Shown: one piece after another, positions 38,047 through 45,382 of the stretch
How positions within the stretch are numbered: the stretch's first letter is position 1
Layout: every line of letters starts with the position of its first letter
Source: Phycisphaerae bacterium
GTDB taxonomy: Bacteria; Planctomycetota; Phycisphaerae; UBA1845; Fen-1342
Direction: 5' to 3'
Assembly (NCBI GenBank): GCA_028279405.1
Contig: JANQNU010000007.1
Span: 1 to 64,000, forward strand
Length of the DNA: 64,000 bases
Program-made: the position numbers and the translations under genes
The notes under the pieces: model-generated
Databases searched by the model: none
What the model was told of the DNA's origin: nothing
The model's input: only the letters and a program-made list of their open reading frames with translations

Positions 38047-41000
38047 ATGCAACAGTCGCGTCACGTTCTGCTGTCACTGACAATCCTGACCCTGGGGTCG
38101 CTCGTGCGTGCGGACGAGCCGGCATCTGAGGCGCCGCCGACCGCACCCGCACCGTCTCCGGAAACGGTAACGATTCAATTGAAACCAAGTGAGGCAGATC
38201 GCGTCGACCCGCCGATCCGCTTCACGGCGCGTTTTACGGCGGAGGACCTGACCGCATTGCTGCTCGACCACACTGATGAGCTGCCGCTGGCACTTCGCAT
38301 CAATTCGGGAGCGACCCGTGACGCCTTGGAACGGGTGAACATGGGCGTGCTGGCGAAAACGCTTGCGGGCTATCTGGCGGAACACTTCCCGCAGCGGTTC
38401 GATCCGGGCCGCGACCTGATTTCCAAGCCTGTGGAAACGGAGAATCAGGTTGCGCTGCAGGTAGATGGCTGGAAGGCGCCGACCTACTCCGGACCGCGTA
38501 CCGAGATCGCTGGTTTCCTGATTCACGATGTTACCGAGCGCGAATACATCCGCGTCTCGGCGCGGGTAATGCAAACGGCGCGTCAGCTGCTCGATTCCGG
38601 CGACCCCCTGCTGGATCGTCAGTCTGAGGAGTACTACCGCCTGCTGGCCCAGGGTGAGCTGGATCAGTTGATGGCAATCGCAGCGGAAGAGGAGCGTGTG
38701 GCGGACGAGCGAGAGCAGGCCCGCCGACAAATCGGCGCAGCGCTCGGCGTGGTGGATCCGACCAACGGTGCGCCGACCGGTAAGGCAGCGCAGTGGTTGA
38801 AGGAAACACGCCGCTACTCATATATCGTCAAGGAGGGGAAGTTCATCGAACGATTGCGACCGGTTGTCCAGGCCCTGAACACGCGCGTGGCGCTGTCGGG
38901 ATTCTCTCCGCCCAACCCGCTCGATCAGGCAGGCGTCCATTTTGACCCGGACCTCGGTGACGTGGACATCGTCCTGCCGCGTTCGATGGTGGCTCAGTTC
39001 CTGGAACTGGCCGACGGCCTCGAGAAGCGAATGGCTGAGGATTACATCATCAGTATCGAGGCAGTGCGACTGACCGACCGAGAGATCGTGAATGGGGCCG
39101 TCGCGTCACGGCTCAATGCGCAGGTGCAGGGCGTGCACGACGTGCAGCGCTTCAACTCGGAGGCGGTGATTCGTCGGCTGGGACTGAACTCTCTGATGGC
39201 CGTGGCCAACCAGCAGTTGCAGCTTGCAACGCTACGGTCGATTGCGACGGGTGCGTTCCCGGACGGCGTCGGACCGGTGACGATTGCCTCGCCGGAATTG
39301 CCCGGTGTCCGGATGGCCCCGGAGGCGACGACGATCGGCAGCACCTTCTCCGTTGGGGCGGACGACATTTTCTTCGACGGTCGCGAGCAGCGCTATGGGT
39401 TCAGCTATGTCGGCCCGGACGGGATCGAGCACTCACTATCCTTGGACATCGTCGACAGCTTGCGCGAGTTCTGGGACCGCATCGAGCGCAATCTGATCGT
39501 GCACAAGATCAAGAAGGACGACGTGCTGACCAAGTTCACCGTGCCGGTCGGGCCGGAGACGAAGACCTACGAGGGTCTGGCGGCGCTGATCTCACAGGAG
39601 GACCAGCAGTTGATCGTCGCCACCGGTACCGGCGCCATTAGTGAGATCAGCGCGACGGCCGGCACGTGGCTGGTGATCAACGACTTCGAGATCTCGCCGA
39701 TTCCCGGTTCGTCCACGACGTTGAGCCGCGAAGAGAACGAGGCGCTGACCGACAGCGTACTGATGACGATGCTGATGCGCGACCCCTTGATTGAGAGTGA
39801 GACCAAGCTCCAGCTACTGGAGGCAACGGACGAGGGCGCCCTGCGCGCGCTGCTTCAGCGTCACTTCCAGCAGAACAAGAGCCGCAAGGCAGGTTTGCAT
39901 CACGGGGCTCGCGTATACGAGGAAGTGTTCGAACAGCGCGAGCTGCAGGTCAAGGCGGATGCCGCGGTCGAGAAGAAGGAGCGCAACTCGATCATCACGC
40001 TCAACTTCTTTTCGAGCCAGGGTAACATCATCCAATCGCCCGGCGCTACCCAGCTCGGTGCGGCCAACGACCTGACATCCTTCACGACGGAGCTGCGGCC
40101 GAACATGGTTACGCCGATCTCGTCGTTCTTCACGCGTCAGGGAAGTGGGGCCACCGGAACCTCGCCGCTCTCCGGGATCGACCAGGGTGAGCAACGCAAC
40201 AGCGACAAGACCATGACCCACCTGGTGATCCGGGCCCGTTTCCCGAATGCCGAGCGCGAGCGACGGGACCTCGAAGAGGGTCGTCACCTGGGGTATTTCA
40301 AGCTGCCGCTGACGCGTGAGCACGAGAGCAAGGTCGAATTGCCGCTGCTCTCGAGTTCCGAGCATCCGCTGGATCGTCTGGCCGGGTTGCGGTTTGGCCT
40401 GATCTTCGAAACGTTGAACCCGGAACGTGTTCGCAAACCGTTTTCGCTGCTCAATCCCAATCGCTTCCCCGGGACGGTGCGGGAGGACGTACATGAAGCC
40501 GCAATGACGCGGATGCTGATGATGGCCCGGATCATTGCCGACTCGCCGGGGCGCGACGAGGGCCTGACGCGCGACTATAAGACACGCTTCATCATTGCCG
40601 TGCGATCGCTGCTCGAATACGACGAGGACTTCTTCGATGCGCCGAACTTCGCGTTGCGGAATCTCGCGCAGTGGAACGATCCCGACCGTATCAGTGTCGC
40701 GCTCAATAACAGTCCCAATCGTTTTGCCCTCGACCGGCTGATCGCGATGCTCGATGAGATCGGCGTCCTGTTGATTCCGGATGAGTACGACGAAAAGCAC
40801 CTCGCACGCGCCAGGAAGGACTTCCTGGGGCCGAAGCGACTCGTGCCGCTGACGAAAGAAGAGCTGCGCACGCTGCGCCGAGATGTCGCAATTCACTTCC
40901 TCCGGACCCAGGAAGCCTGCGGCGATGCCTTCCTTGAAGCGACCTCCAACATCCTGGGCCTTGGTACCTATCGGAACGAGCGCAAGCGCATCCTGAATAC

Positions 41001-41244
41001 ACCGTTGCACAGTTACCGTGACCTGGTGATCTTCGCGCGTGGCGGGCGCCGTCACAGCGATCCCGAGGCCTACGAGGCGGCATGTGACGATTTCCTGCTG
41101 CTGAAGGACGGCGGCTACCGGGGCAAGCTGTTCGAACCGTCCTTTCTCGGTCTGGAGCACATGGCCAAGGATCGGCGGAAGTTCGTCCGGCACGGCCCCG
41201 AAATCCTCGAAGAGGCCAATCGCTGGCAGCCCTATCGCTTTTGA
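38047..41244 (+). CDS. Large exported protein of unknown function
   Basis: 1065 residues with a signal peptide cleaved near LVRADEP. No known domain was recognised. The protein is rich in charged alpha-helical stretches (around 200-260 and 590-660, possibly coiled coil) and has a serine/threonine-rich beta segment near 680-740. A middle segment (about 430-530: 'FSYVGPDGIEHSLSLDIVDS', 'VPVGPETKTYEG') has alternating hydrophobic residues like outer-membrane or secretin-type beta structure, but I could not match it to secretins. It lies between mltA (divergent) and an amidase lipoprotein, so an envelope role is likely. The codon use looks like that of its neighbours. Confidence 0.65.
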   Translation: MQQSRHVLLSLTILTLGSLVRADEPASEAPPTAPAPSPETVTIQLKPSEADRVDPPIRFTARFTAEDLTALLLDHTDELPLALRINSGATRDALERVNMGVLAKTLAGYLAEHFPQRFDPGRDLISKPVETENQVALQVDGWKAPTYSGPRTEIAGFLIHDVTEREYIRVSARVMQTARQLLDSGDPLLDRQSEEYYRLLAQGELDQLMAIAAEEERVADEREQARRQIGAALGVVDPTNGAPTGKAAQWLKETRRYSYIVKEGKFIERLRPVVQALNTRVALSGFSPPNPLDQAGVHFDPDLGDVDIVLPRSMVAQFLELADGLEKRMAEDYIISIEAVRLTDREIVNGAVASRLNAQVQGVHDVQRFNSEAVIRRLGLNSLMAVANQQLQLATLRSIATGAFPDGVGPVTIASPELPGVRMAPEATTIGSTFSVGADDIFFDGREQRYGFSYVGPDGIEHSLSLDIVDSLREFWDRIERNLIVHKIKKDDVLTKFTVPVGPETKTYEGLAALISQEDQQLIVATGTGAISEISATAGTWLVINDFEISPIPGSSTTLSREENEALTDSVLMTMLMRDPLIESETKLQLLEATDEGALRALLQRHFQQNKSRKAGLHHGARVYEEVFEQRELQVKADAAVEKKERNSIITLNFFSSQGNIIQSPGATQLGAANDLTSFTTELRPNMVTPISSFFTRQGSGATGTSPLSGIDQGEQRNSDKTMTHLVIRARFPNAERERRDLEEGRHLGYFKLPLTREHESKVELPLLSSSEHPLDRLAGLRFGLIFETLNPERVRKPFSLLNPNRFPGTVREDVHEAAMTRMLMMARIIADSPGRDEGLTRDYKTRFIIAVRSLLEYDEDFFDAPNFALRNLAQWNDPDRISVALNNSPNRFALDRLIAMLDEIGVLLIPDEYDEKHLARARKDFLGPKRLVPLTKEELRTLRRDVAIHFLRTQEACGDAFLEATSNILGLGTYRNERKRILNTPLHSYRDLVIFARGGRRHSDPEAYEAACDDFLLLKDGGYRGKLFEPSFLGLEHMAKDRRKFVRHGPEILEEANRWQPYRF

Positions 41245-41358
41245 TGCGGCGCACCGACGTCAGTGGGATTTGATCGACGTGTAGCGGCGCGTGACGGTCG
41301 TGAGCGGCTACTCCGGCCAATGCGCGCCGCCGGCCATACTCGAACGAAAGGACGGAAC

Positions 41359-42345
41359 GTGTACAACACCGCTCGAATCCGGCGTCTGACCGTGGCTGCG
41401 CCCGTGCTCATGTTGGCCATCGGCTGTGCTACACCCTATGGTCGACCGGGCCAGCCGGCCGATCGGCTCGGCGACGAGATCATGGTAGCTGGTCGGCTCT
41501 TTCACACTGGAGCGCCGGTCGTTCTTTGGACCGACGCGGGCGGTTATGACGCCTATCGTGCGGAATGTCGCTTCACGGATCGGCTTGCGCCGCGTCGGCC
41601 GGTGAGCGATGCGCCCATCCGCTACGGCACCTGGCGCCGTCGATTGCCGGCGGAGTTGCTGGAGCAGGTGCGGGCCGAAGGCTGGACACTACCGACGTTG
41701 CAGCAGGCCGTCACGCAGTTCGTACTGCATTACGACGTCTGCGGCTATTCGCGCCGATGCTTTGAGGTGCTGCATGACCTGCGCGGATTGAGCGTACATT
41801 TCATGCTCGACATTGACGGCACGATCTACCAGACGCTCGACGTCAAGGAGCGCGCCTGGCACGCCGGCACCGCCAACGACCGCAGTGTCGGTATCGAGAT
41901 CGCCAATATCGGCGCCTATCCGAACATGAGTACCCTGAACAAGTGGTACGCGACGAACGATGGCGGCGAGGTGACGATCACGCTGCCGGATAGGGCCGGC
42001 GATGGCGGCCTGCGAACGCCGAGCTATGTCGGCCGACCGTCAGGGGGTGCGGTGATCACCGGGGAGATCAACGGTCGCGAGCTGATGCAATATGACCTCA
42101 CGGATGCCCAGTACGACTCGCTCGTCAAGCTGACGGCGACGCTATGCACGGTCCTCCCTGAGATCCGCGTCGATTACCCACGGGATGCCGACGGTACCCT
42201 GCGTACCGACGCGCTCTCCGCCGACGAACTCTCGGCGTACACCGGCCTCATCGGCCACTACCACATCACGACCGGCAAGTCCGATCCCGGCCCGGCCTTC
42301 GACTGGGAACGGCTTGTCGCCGGCGTCAAGAAAGCGATGCGATAG
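41359..42345 (+). CDS. N-acetylmuramoyl-L-alanine amidase lipoprotein (Amidase_2)
   Basis: 328 residues from a GTG preceded by AAAGGACGGAAC; a longer upstream frame has no site. The signal peptide ends LAIGC, so it is lipid-anchored. The AmpD/T7-lysozyme fold is shown by FVLHYDVCG (first zinc His), 'HFMLDIDGTIYQTLDVKERA', AWHAG (second His), 'RSVGIEIANIG' and GHYHITTGKSDPGPAF, the usual GH..I..GK.DPGP end. It should cut the bond between muramic acid and the stem peptide. A long insert separates the last two blocks. It is 114 bases downstream of the large exported protein. Confidence 0.87.
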   Translation: MYNTARIRRLTVAAPVLMLAIGCATPYGRPGQPADRLGDEIMVAGRLFHTGAPVVLWTDAGGYDAYRAECRFTDRLAPRRPVSDAPIRYGTWRRRLPAELLEQVRAEGWTLPTLQQAVTQFVLHYDVCGYSRRCFEVLHDLRGLSVHFMLDIDGTIYQTLDVKERAWHAGTANDRSVGIEIANIGAYPNMSTLNKWYATNDGGEVTITLPDRAGDGGLRTPSYVGRPSGGAVITGEINGRELMQYDLTDAQYDSLVKLTATLCTVLPEIRVDYPRDADGTLRTDALSADELSAYTGLIGHYHITTGKSDPGPAFDWERLVAGVKKAMR

Positions 42346-42629: not shown

Positions 42630-43000
42630 CGGACGACAAATCGATTCGCTATGCACGCGGCCGCCCACCGAAGCCCAAGATCGACTTCGGGTGGATCCTG
42701 CTGGGCCTCGCTTGCCTGATCTTTGTGGGCCTCGCTTATCTGGCCGAGCCGCATGGCGGTGATTGGGTTCGCGGCGTTTACATGAGCGCCGCGACGCTCG
42801 CCGTCAACGTCTTGGGGTTCTGGTGCTTTGTTCGCGCATGTTGGAGAGCGCGCCGAATTCAGGAGCGGGACCTGACGCCGAGCGAGGGGCTGCAGTTGTT
42901 CGTTTCGGCCGCAATCGTCTTCCTGTTTTGCTGCGGAGGAGGACCCGCAAGCCCAGAGCTGGTCATAGACCGCTTCTGGGACGCCGTCGCGCGTCGGTAG
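42626..43000 (+). CDS. Small two- or three-span membrane protein
   Basis: 124 residues from the GTG that overlaps the preceding stop. Membrane segments lie near residues 20-40, 50-75 and 95-112. No family assigned. It ends 180 bases before the PEP-CTERM gene, with a promoter/operator region between, so the two small membrane genes form a separate unit from the PEP-CTERM operon. Confidence 0.5.
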   Translation: MTDDKSIRYARGRPPKPKIDFGWILLGLACLIFVGLAYLAEPHGGDWVRGVYMSAATLAVNVLGFWCFVRACWRARRIQERDLTPSEGLQLFVSAAIVFLFCCGGGPASPELVIDRFWDAVARR

Positions 43001-43110
43001 CCGAGGGTCGCGGTTTCCCGATTTCGTCCGTGTTCGAACGTCCTAACGACGGGAATTGGCGGCGTTTTGCCGGAATTCTCGAATTTTTCTTGGACTTTCA
43101 CAAAACACAC

Positions 43111-43126
43111 GGCTACAAATGTAACT
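43111..43126. promoter_or_regulatory. BlaI/CopY-like operator, site 1
   Basis: GGCTACAAATGTAACT: the left half is the GGCTAC consensus and the centre reads TACA-AA-TGTA, the core of BlaI/MecI/CopY operators. A possible -10 (TACAAA) overlaps it, with TTGGAC 18 bases upstream. Site 2 starts exactly 20 bases downstream. Confidence 0.6.
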
Positions 43127-43130
43127 GAAC

Positions 43131-43146
43131 GGCTACTCGTGTAGCC
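43131..43146. promoter_or_regulatory. BlaI/CopY-like operator, site 2
   Basis: GGCTACTCGTGTAGCC is a perfect GGCTAC-N4-GTAGCC dyad, two helical turns from site 1 and 35 bases before the PEP-CTERM start codon. Confidence 0.6.
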
Positions 43147-43180
43147 GCAATTCACCCTCTTAGTATTGGGAGAGAAGATA

Positions 43181-43846
43181 ATGCAGAAGTTTGTGGGAGC
43201 GGCCGCCCTCCTGATGGCTACAACTGTAGCCAGTGCGGTGACGGTGGACATTACGGGTGGTCAGACCAGTGTGGCGTTGGACACGGCGACGTTGAGTTCG
43301 GCGGCGAGTCTGGATTTGTCGAGTGTTTCGCCGGACGTGATTTCGCCGGGCTCGTTGCCGAATTCGGTGGCGTTCGGCATCAACGCGCGCGATGCGGCCA
43401 GCCTTCCGACCACGTTTTCGTACGATTCGGATGATTTTCTGGGCACGTTTTCCGGGACGATCGAGCACACGGGCAGTGTTTTCTTCAACAACGACGCTGT
43501 CGAGGTAGGCAACTTCACGATCGGATTCGACGGAGCCCGCGCCGGGACGCTTGGCGGCAATGCCAGCGGTTTCTTCGTCGCCAGCACGACCGGTATTGCC
43601 GCGACGCTGTTCGACATCGAGAATCCCAGTACGCTGAATGCAGGGACTGACAGCTTGACGATCGGCGCTAATCTGCTGGTGTCGCCGGAGTTCGGGCAGT
43701 TCCTTCTCGACCAGAACCTCGCGTCGACGAACCTGGCGGGTGCCGACGTCGGCGATGCGTTGGTCGAAGCGGTTCCGGAGCCGACGACGGCGATGCTAAT
43801 GCTGTTGGGGCTTGGTGGACTTCTGCGTTCGCGGCATAGAATCTGA
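43181..43846 (+). CDS. PEP-CTERM exported protein, first gene of a blaI-blaR1-type operon
   Basis: 221 residues from the ATG behind GGGAGAGAAG. A signal peptide (about 1-20) precedes a beta-rich domain dominated by Ser, Thr, Gly and Asp, with no catalytic motif. The C-terminus is a textbook PEP-CTERM signal: VPEPTT, a hydrophobic stretch and the tail RSRHRI, to be processed by an exosortase (not in this window). Three copies of a BlaI-type dyad surround its start, one of them inside the signal-peptide codons. It ends 53 bases before the repressor gene, so the three genes probably form one operon. It is probably an exopolysaccharide-associated or surface protein; function otherwise unknown. 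Confidence 0.88.
   Translation: MQKFVGAAALLMATTVASAVTVDITGGQTSVALDTATLSSAASLDLSSVSPDVISPGSLPNSVAFGINARDAASLPTTFSYDSDDFLGTFSGTIEHTGSVFFNNDAVEVGNFTIGFDGARAGTLGGNASGFFVASTTGIAATLFDIENPSTLNAGTDSLTIGANLLVSPEFGQFLLDQNLASTNLAGADVGDALVEAVPEPTTAMLMLLGLGGLLRSRHRI
43216..43231. promoter_or_regulatory. BlaI/CopY-like operator, site 3 (inside the coding region)
   Basis: GGCTACAACTGTAGCC is a perfect GGCTAC-N4-GTAGCC dyad with core TACA-AC-TGTA, in the codons of the PEP-CTERM signal peptide. It starts 85 bases after site 2, close to eight helical turns. Confidence 0.55.
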
Positions 43847-43856
43847 GGATTTGCGC

Positions 43857-43876
43857 TCCGCGGGCCGTTCCGCGGA
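43857..43876. promoter_or_regulatory. Hairpin between the PEP-CTERM gene and the repressor gene
   Basis: TCCGCGG and CCGCGGA form a 7-bp stem with a 6-base loop just after the PEP-CTERM stop. No T-run follows, so it is more likely a processing or mRNA-stability hairpin that would let the surface protein be made in excess over the repressor. Confidence 0.4.
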
Positions 43877-43899
43877 TGAGAACACGGCATCAGGCTGCG

Positions 43900-44295
43900 A
43901 TGGAGCCGGCTGTGCAATTGAGTGACGCTGAGTGGAAGGTGATGAACGCGGTCTGGCGGAAGAGCCCCGCCGGCGTGCGCGAGGTCCACGAACAGCTCAA
44001 GTCGGAGACCGGCTGGGCGTTCACGACGGTGAAGACCATGCTCACGCGGCTGGTCGAAAAGGGTGTGCTGACGGTCGAGAAACAGGGCAATGCCCGCATG
44101 TTTTCGCCGGTGGTGCAAAAGACCCAGGCGCGCAAGCAAGCCGTCAATGCGCTGATCGACAAGGCGTTCGACGGGGCCTTCGGACCGCTTCTTCACTATC
44201 TGCTCACTTCCGAGAAGCTGACGAAACAGGAGCTGCAGGAACTGCAACAGTTCCTGCAGCAGGACGAACAGCGCCCGCGCGACAAGCGCGGATAA
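43900..44295 (+). CDS. BlaI/MecI/CopY-family transcriptional repressor
   Basis: 131 residues from the ATG of MEPAVQLSDAEW; an ATG 24 bases upstream is possible but lies in a hairpin, while an AGG precedes the chosen start. The winged-helix DNA-binding domain shows LSDAEWKVMNAVWRKSPAGV, 'HEQLKSETGWAFTTVKTMLT' and RLVEKGVLTVEK. The C-terminal helices mediate dimerisation. Relatives are cleaved by a BlaR1-type protease when a signal arrives. The target is most likely the dyad GGCTAC-N4-GTAGCC near the PEP-CTERM gene. Confidence 0.88.
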   Translation: MEPAVQLSDAEWKVMNAVWRKSPAGVREVHEQLKSETGWAFTTVKTMLTRLVEKGVLTVEKQGNARMFSPVVQKTQARKQAVNALIDKAFDGAFGPLLHYLLTSEKLTKQELQELQQFLQQDEQRPRDKRG

Positions 44296-44314
44296 CGAGG
44301 GGGCACCGACACTC

Positions 44315-45382
44315 ATGGTCAGTGCGATGGGAATCGGGTCGTTGTGGTGGAGCTGGGCCTGGCCGATGTTCTGGCAGGTCATGGTGCTCGTGTTGCTCGT
44401 AGCGCTCGTCGATCGACTCATCCGGAGCTGGGCCTGGCCGCAGGTCCGCTTGGCGCTCTGGTGGGTTGTCATCCTGAAGCTGATCATCCCGCCGACGTTC
44501 GCACTCGGTACGAGTTTGACCAGCGCCGCGTTCGATCGGGCTACGGTGCCGTACACGGTTCTGCGCGCCGCGGGAATGTTCGACGATCTGGTCGGGTGTG
44601 GCGGCTTGTTGGTTCCCGCGTTGGAGGGTTCGGCGCCCACGAGTGATTGGGCCCATGCGCGTTCGCAATGGCCGGTGGCGGTCGGGGTCATCTGGTTGTT
44701 GGGAGTGCTGTTGCTTTCCGGTCTGCTGTTGATCCGCTATCGGTCGTTACGCCGGGCCTATCTGGCACGGCCAGCGCGGCGGACGCTGCCGTCGTGGCTG
44801 GACGCGATGGCCCGCTCGGCGGCTCGGCAACTCGGCATGAACCGTACGCCGGAGGTCGTGTTGACGTCCGCGATTGACTGCCCGGCGGTGCTCGGCGTGT
44901 TCCATCCCGTCGTGCTGTTGCCGACTGACGTCCCGGAGACCTTGTCGCGGACCGATCTTCGACATGCGCTGCTGCACGAGTTCGCGCACATTCGCCGACG
45001 GGATCCGGTGATCCAGGCAATGATCGCGTCGCTTCAGATCCTTTACTGGTTTGTGCCGTTGGTGTGGTGGGTCGGTCGGCGAATGCACGGGCTGCGCGAG
45101 CTGGCGTGCGATGCCACCGTAGCACGCACGATCGGGGATTCGCGTGATTACCGCCAGTTCCTGGTCGATGCCGCTCGGCGGGTCGTTGCACGCGTGCGCG
45201 TATCGGCACTCGAGATGGCGCTCTTCGAGCGCGAAGTCAACCTGCTTTCCAGACTCAAGGCGCTGGACCGCGACGGCTGGCGACACCAGCGCACGGCCAA
45301 CCTGACGGCGCTGCTGATCATTGCCGCCATGGTGCTGTATATCCTGCCAATGGGTACCGCCGTGGTCGGTTGCCCTACCTAG
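44315..45382 (+). CDS. BlaR1/MecR1-like M56 membrane metalloprotease
   Basis: 355 residues. Membrane segments lie near 12-35, 45-65 and 118-140, with a last one at the C-terminus (about 332-350). Between them is the M56 protease domain: CPAVLGVFHPVVLLP, then HEFAHIRRRDP (HExxH zinc motif) and RELACDATVA with the third zinc ligand Glu. It lacks the extracellular penicillin-binding sensor domain of BlaR1, so the signal is not obviously a beta-lactam. It should cleave the neighbouring BlaI-type repressor. It follows that gene by 19 bases. Confidence 0.88.
   Translation: MVSAMGIGSLWWSWAWPMFWQVMVLVLLVALVDRLIRSWAWPQVRLALWWVVILKLIIPPTFALGTSLTSAAFDRATVPYTVLRAAGMFDDLVGCGGLLVPALEGSAPTSDWAHARSQWPVAVGVIWLLGVLLLSGLLLIRYRSLRRAYLARPARRTLPSWLDAMARSAARQLGMNRTPEVVLTSAIDCPAVLGVFHPVVLLPTDVPETLSRTDLRHALLHEFAHIRRRDPVIQAMIASLQILYWFVPLVWWVGRRMHGLRELACDATVARTIGDSRDYRQFLVDAARRVVARVRVSALEMALFEREVNLLSRLKALDRDGWRHQRTANLTALLIIAAMVLYILPMGTAVVGCPT

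Follow-up and report, generated by a model that had tools for sequence, protein, structure and literature searches.

BlaI and MecI bind TACA/TGTA dyads (PMC5460165) and are inactivated by BlaR1 and MecR1 once a signal has reached the sensor domain (PMC7593790). For PEP-CTERM genes, regulation by sigma-54, probably with PrsK/PrsR, was described (PMC9850573). A literature search, thin on subscription journals, yielded no relevant work joining PEP-CTERM with BlaI and nothing relevant on BlaI/M56 of Planctomycetes or on HtaA with PEP-CTERM. Likewise, no literature was found on what the BlaI/M56 pairs of planctomycetes sense and control.

The operon described here is located in a 64-kb stretch (the window) of the 5.63-Mb genome of a planctomycete bacterium. 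It shares with BlaI-BlaR1 and MecI-MecR1, the beta-lactam-induced pairs of penicillin resistance, a repressor of the BlaI family, promoter dyads of the TACA/TGTA type and an adjoining M56 gene with HEXXH motif, whereas the M56 protein has no penicillin-binding sensor and the cargo is a PEP-CTERM protein instead of a beta-lactamase or PBP2a. With PrsK/PrsR and sigma-54 it has in common the transcriptional control of PEP-CTERM surface proteins (PMC9850573). In contrast to that system, the putative regulator is of the BlaI type, and no −24/−12 promoter was found at the locus (near 43000-43180, up to two mismatches; matches elsewhere were at chance level). The locus suggests a route of PEP-CTERM control besides sigma-54/PrsK-PrsR.

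Genes and dyads of the operon

The first gene (43181..43846, forward strand) encodes the PEP-CTERM protein P0001 (221 aa; PF07589). It has the features of an exosortase substrate, namely a signal peptide (identified by eye), a PEP motif, a hydrophobic stretch and a basic tail, and exosortases are encoded in the genome. It is followed on the same strand by the genes for the repressor P0002 (139 aa; 43876..44295) and the BlaR1-type M56 membrane metalloprotease P0003 (355 aa; 44315..45382). The intergenic gaps are 29 and 19 bases in length, so that an operon is likely. Further upstream, a putative lipoprotein with an Amidase_2 (peptidoglycan amidase) domain is encoded at 41320-42345, for which no link to a dyad was seen, and a predicted exported protein of 1065 aa, with no Pfam match at E 0.001, at 38047-41244.

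P0002 belongs to the BlaI/MecI/CopY (Penicillinase_R) family, with PF03965 spanning the whole protein (residues 15-129, E 2.7e-35), and matches the MecI structure 1sd6 (E 5e-17). The Asn-Phe cleavage site of MecI and BlaI of S. aureus is not kept; an alignment with MecI structures places Tyr-Leu at this position. The best NCBIfam score of P0002 was obtained for CopY_TcrY (96 bits, under the cut-off of 122), and the TACA-N2-TGTA dyad resembles the cop box of the CopY/TcrY copper repressors. Unlike CopY/TcrY, the operon has an adjoining M56 gene and no copper ATPase gene.

P0003 (PF05569, E 4.5e-43) contains HEFAH at residues 221-225, ELACD at residues 262-266 and four transmembrane regions. It stops at residue 355, directly after the last hydrophobic stretch (326-355). 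The C-terminal extracytoplasmic penicillin-binding sensor domain is absent, and the match to blaR1_generic spans positions 106-333 of the 585 model positions. The Pfam matches and this end after the last transmembrane helix confirm the gene calls of the original prediction, which had named a PEP-CTERM protein, a BlaI-type repressor and an M56 protein without penicillin sensor. Short M56 proteases of this kind lack the domain through which the family is understood.

Around the start of the PEP-CTERM gene, three operator-like dyads (no strand assigned) were identified, and their position inside 121 bp is the striking point. Dyad 1 (43111..43126; GGCTACAAATGTAACT) has two mismatches, with a TACA-AA-TGTA core and a degenerate outer right arm. 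Dyad 2 (43131..43146; GGCTACTCGTGTAGCC) is exact and starts 20 bp after dyad 1, and the likewise exact dyad 3 (43216..43231; GGCTACAACTGTAGCC) starts 85 bp after dyad 2. The positions, the start spacing and the degenerate first site predicted originally were all reproduced. The proposed phasing by whole helical turns is roughly true here (20 and 85 bp), but is not strict, as related loci use 20-23 bp.

With up to two mismatches allowed, the dyad pattern gave four matches in the window compared to 1.4 expected, so a single dyad with two mismatches carries little weight. A score of at least 9/10 against CTACANNTGTAG was reached at exactly three sites of the 64-kb window, which are dyads 1, 2 and 3. 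A sigma-70 promoter scan of the operon region in the window gave no match. The −35 and −10 elements are weak, and the candidate TTGGAC-N18-TACAAA was considered and is not claimed; because of this weakness, the placement of the promoter relative to the dyads is a guess.

In the complete genome, GGCTACNNNNGTAGCC was found exactly at three places, two of them at this operon. CTACANNTGTAG occurs exactly four times, and every copy has either a blaI or a PEP-CTERM gene next to it. Besides dyad 3, these are a copy preceding a paralogous blaI (C67:4514), with a second dyad 21 bp away if one mismatch is allowed, and two copies upstream of a second, unlinked PEP-CTERM gene (G000:C57:91242 and G000:C57:91362). 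The latter lie about 270 and 390 bp before the start, at a distance of 120 bp from each other, and no M56 gene lies beside this PEP-CTERM gene. Its product (G000:C57:90196-91374; L016:8897-10075) appears jelly-roll-like by eye. Neither a beta-lactamase nor PBP2a was found as co-regulated cargo; the cargo of the operon is the PEP-CTERM protein, and the other targets with exact dyads are the operon of the blaI paralogue and the second PEP-CTERM gene. In the genomes of four relatives no exact copy of CTACANNTGTAG was found, and in a fifth (G103) there was one, upstream of its blaI.

About 70 PEP-CTERM genes of the genome exceed the family cut-off. Since only two of them have exact dyads, BlaI as a global PEP-CTERM regulator was rejected. 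A conserved BlaI control of the family of the second PEP-CTERM gene was rejected as well, with 11 homologous loci having no dyad.

Recurrence in related genomes

A search for BlaI in the order resulted in a distinct group of 13 loci at 42-51% identity, made up of the window, the paralogue at C67 and a further 11 loci from ten relatives. A TACA/TGTA-type dyad is located upstream of the operon in all 13, mostly as a pair with a distance of 20-23 bp. Six promoters were inspected by eye, five upstream of blaI (L066, L067, L068, L071 and L075) and one upstream of the PEP-CTERM gene of L093. In each, the first dyad occupies the spacer between a −35 resembling TTGACA and the −10 element, and the second dyad comes after it. 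The base preferences derived from 31 sites are biased, since the sites were picked using the dyad pattern. As the dyad accompanies all 13 loci, it is very probably a BlaI-family operator, with further comparative support from the paralogue in the same genome and from three Pirellulales loci. Conservation of the dyad in relatives had been set beforehand as a check that could refute the original prediction; the dyad is conserved, and the reading was not refuted.

A GTDB-wide scan with P0001 gave 15 planctomycete loci with close homologues. At four of these (L067/L085, L086, L087 and L093; 61-70% identity) the P0001 orthologue is linked to BlaI and M56. Five loci pair a P0001-type protein with BlaI and M56, three of which are from Pirellulales. 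At the remaining 11 of the 15 loci, neither a nearby BlaI nor a dyad was found in the sequence examined, and BlaI control is therefore not universal in the P0001 family. In addition, at three loci (L069, L070 and L073/L206) the gene after BlaI and M56 encodes a PEP-CTERM protein with DUF4397, which is unrelated to P0001. The scan for triples of PEP-CTERM, BlaI and M56 that had been suggested thus recovered five loci with P0001 orthologues and three with DUF4397, and judged from these gene neighborhoods the combination of PEP-CTERM, BlaI and sensorless M56 is a recurring module.

The gene order varies between these loci, and the arrangement PEP-BlaI-M56 was found at the operon in the window only. 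The order is BlaI-M56-PEP at L085 (the same contig as L067) and at L086 and L087 (records titled Pirellulales/Pirellulaceae), and at L093 (Pirellulales) the PEP-CTERM gene is divergent from BlaI and M56. A dyad lies 83 bp before the PEP-CTERM start at L087. The PEP-CTERM promoter of L093 (TTGACA/TAACAT) has two dyads, one between its elements and one downstream of the −10 element. At L087, L093 and G000:C57, dyads are found before PEP-CTERM genes whose promoter is separate from that of blaI.

In the M56 tree, the short M56 sequences from the order fall into a single clade (SH-aLRT 99). One of its two branches is linked to PEP-CTERM (94), the other to DUF1579 (96). The three Pirellulales sequences group together (98), with weakly supported placement. 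BlaI/M56 pairs are common in the order, and at the BlaI loci outside this clade M56 is long (492-1193 aa) and has extra C-terminal sequence. Within the order, a PEP-CTERM neighbor was found at 5 of 13 loci of the short M56 clade compared to one doubtful case in about 63 other BlaI loci (Fisher p 4e-4; 2e-3 by genus; related genomes are not independent). The closest M56 matches outside the order are mostly in long open frames; two are short and occur with DUF1579 (L259 and L260), and several others end at contig edges or are unassigned.

Wherever the downstream sequence of a locus of the short M56 clade is complete, an exported partner is encoded, either PEP-CTERM or DUF1579; L075 and L203 are interrupted by contig ends. 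The exported DUF1579 protein is present at L018, L066, L068, L071, L072 and L074, and outside the order at L259 and L260, assigned by Pfam for L018 and L071 and by clear similarity for the remaining loci. These planctomycete operons resemble the operon in the window in their BlaI/M56 clade, the paired dyads and the adjoining exported protein, and differ in the cargo, which is DUF1579 instead of PEP-CTERM. The conserved operators tie one BlaI/M56 clade to exported surface proteins and point to a small, defined regulon.

At the same eight DUF1579 loci, BlaI, sensorless M56 and exported DUF1579 appear as a second conserved module with dyads before blaI. A gene resembling an SRPBCC-type protein (by appearance, not by Pfam) often follows.

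Proposed switch and alternative readings

The genes, the dyads, the conservation of the dyads and their association were read directly from the sequence. We infer repressor binding, the cleavage of BlaI by M56 and the direction of control. The reading preferred here, with a probability of roughly 0.72, is that a BlaI/M56 derepression switch was retooled to control, and perhaps also to sense, an exported surface protein. A dimer of the BlaI-type repressor would bind the TACA-N2-TGTA dyads, with dyads 1 and 2 at the promoter and dyad 3 in the first codons, and would keep the expression of all three genes of the operon low. P0002 would also repress the second PEP-CTERM gene (G000:C57), although the C67 paralogue of BlaI could share this target or control it in place of P0002. 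By analogy with BlaR1/MecR1, the sensorless M56 in the inner membrane, once activated, would inactivate the repressor, and the exported, exosortase-sorted surface protein would be made. Since the sensor domain of M56 is missing, the signal would have to enter in another way, which could be the TM2-TM3 loop (about 50 aa), the membrane itself or a partner, for instance the exported protein.

In one alternative, the PEP-CTERM protein provides the input as a detached sensor: M56 would read its presence, folding or exosortase processing, and derepression by BlaI would replenish it (a split BlaR1 or surveillance loop). This alternative is in line with the exported partner at all complete loci of the short M56 clade, set against the long M56 proteins (492-1193 aa) of the other BlaI loci, and with the PEP-CTERM branch, in which the PEP-CTERM tail stays while one ectodomain is exchanged for another (HtaA-like or DUF4397). 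The swapped ectodomains and the constant tail make the idea worth testing, and not more than that. Co-transcription, however, is equally compatible with an output, and the second dyad-bearing PEP-CTERM gene has no adjoining M56. We regard this alternative as rather unlikely, and only tentatively suggest its wider form, in which M56 would have lost a sensor domain of its own and the exported PEP-CTERM or DUF1579 partner, or its exosortase processing, decides the cutting of BlaI in a self-surveying surface-protein circuit.

Dyad 3 is located within the PEP-CTERM reading frame, on the signal-peptide codons for ATTVA, and could be a coding coincidence with only dyads 1 and 2 being functional, as the related loci examined show no third site at that place. 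On the other hand, it is among the only three exact copies of GGCTACNNNNGTAGCC and the only four of CTACANNTGTAG in 5.63 Mb and lies 85 bp from another dyad, and a coincidence appears improbable. That the operon is a plain autoregulated BlaI/M56 pair with the PEP-CTERM gene as a chance neighbor is very improbable: such pairs are common in the order, the genome has about 70 PEP-CTERM genes and most P0001 homologues are unlinked to BlaI, but the linkage spans two lineages and three gene arrangements, the PEP-CTERM genes at L087, L093 and C57 are independently preceded by dyads, and PEP-CTERM is enriched compared to the other BlaI loci.

Predicted fold of the PEP-CTERM protein

The structure of P0001 was modeled using AlphaFold2 (pLDDT 80, 17 sequences). 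The top matches of the model were the CR domains of HtaA, HtaB, ChtA and HbpA (Foldseek E 2.7e-6), with a VIA-align Z of 13.4 compared to 7.0 for the next unrelated fold. The ectodomain is therefore predicted to fold like the haem-binding CR beta-sandwich of HtaA/ChtA; a sequence-profile comparison between P0001 and HtaA gave no match. In CR domains, a tyrosine in helix alpha-1 binds the haem iron, usually assisted by a histidine (PMC12494546). The equivalent helix of the P0001 model (residues 35-42) is free of tyrosine in all aligned members. His96 is invariant in the alignment, and its distance along the sequence would roughly suit the assisting histidine. As the axial tyrosine is missing, classical haem coordination by P0001 is not expected and haem binding is not claimed.

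P0001 resembles the HtaA/ChtA CR domains in its predicted fold and differs from them in the missing alpha-1 tyrosine, in the PEP-CTERM anchor and in its occurrence in planctomycetes instead of actinobacteria. It represents a family of PEP-CTERM proteins whose predicted fold is that of a haem protein (CR) but without the haem ligand. In two members of the HtaA-like family (L095:4304-5077 and L097:5905-6849) a dockerin-like tail replaces PEP-CTERM. A further P0001 homologue, with 44% identity in the alignment, is encoded outside the planctomycetes in a record titled Chromatiales (L099:6001-6525).
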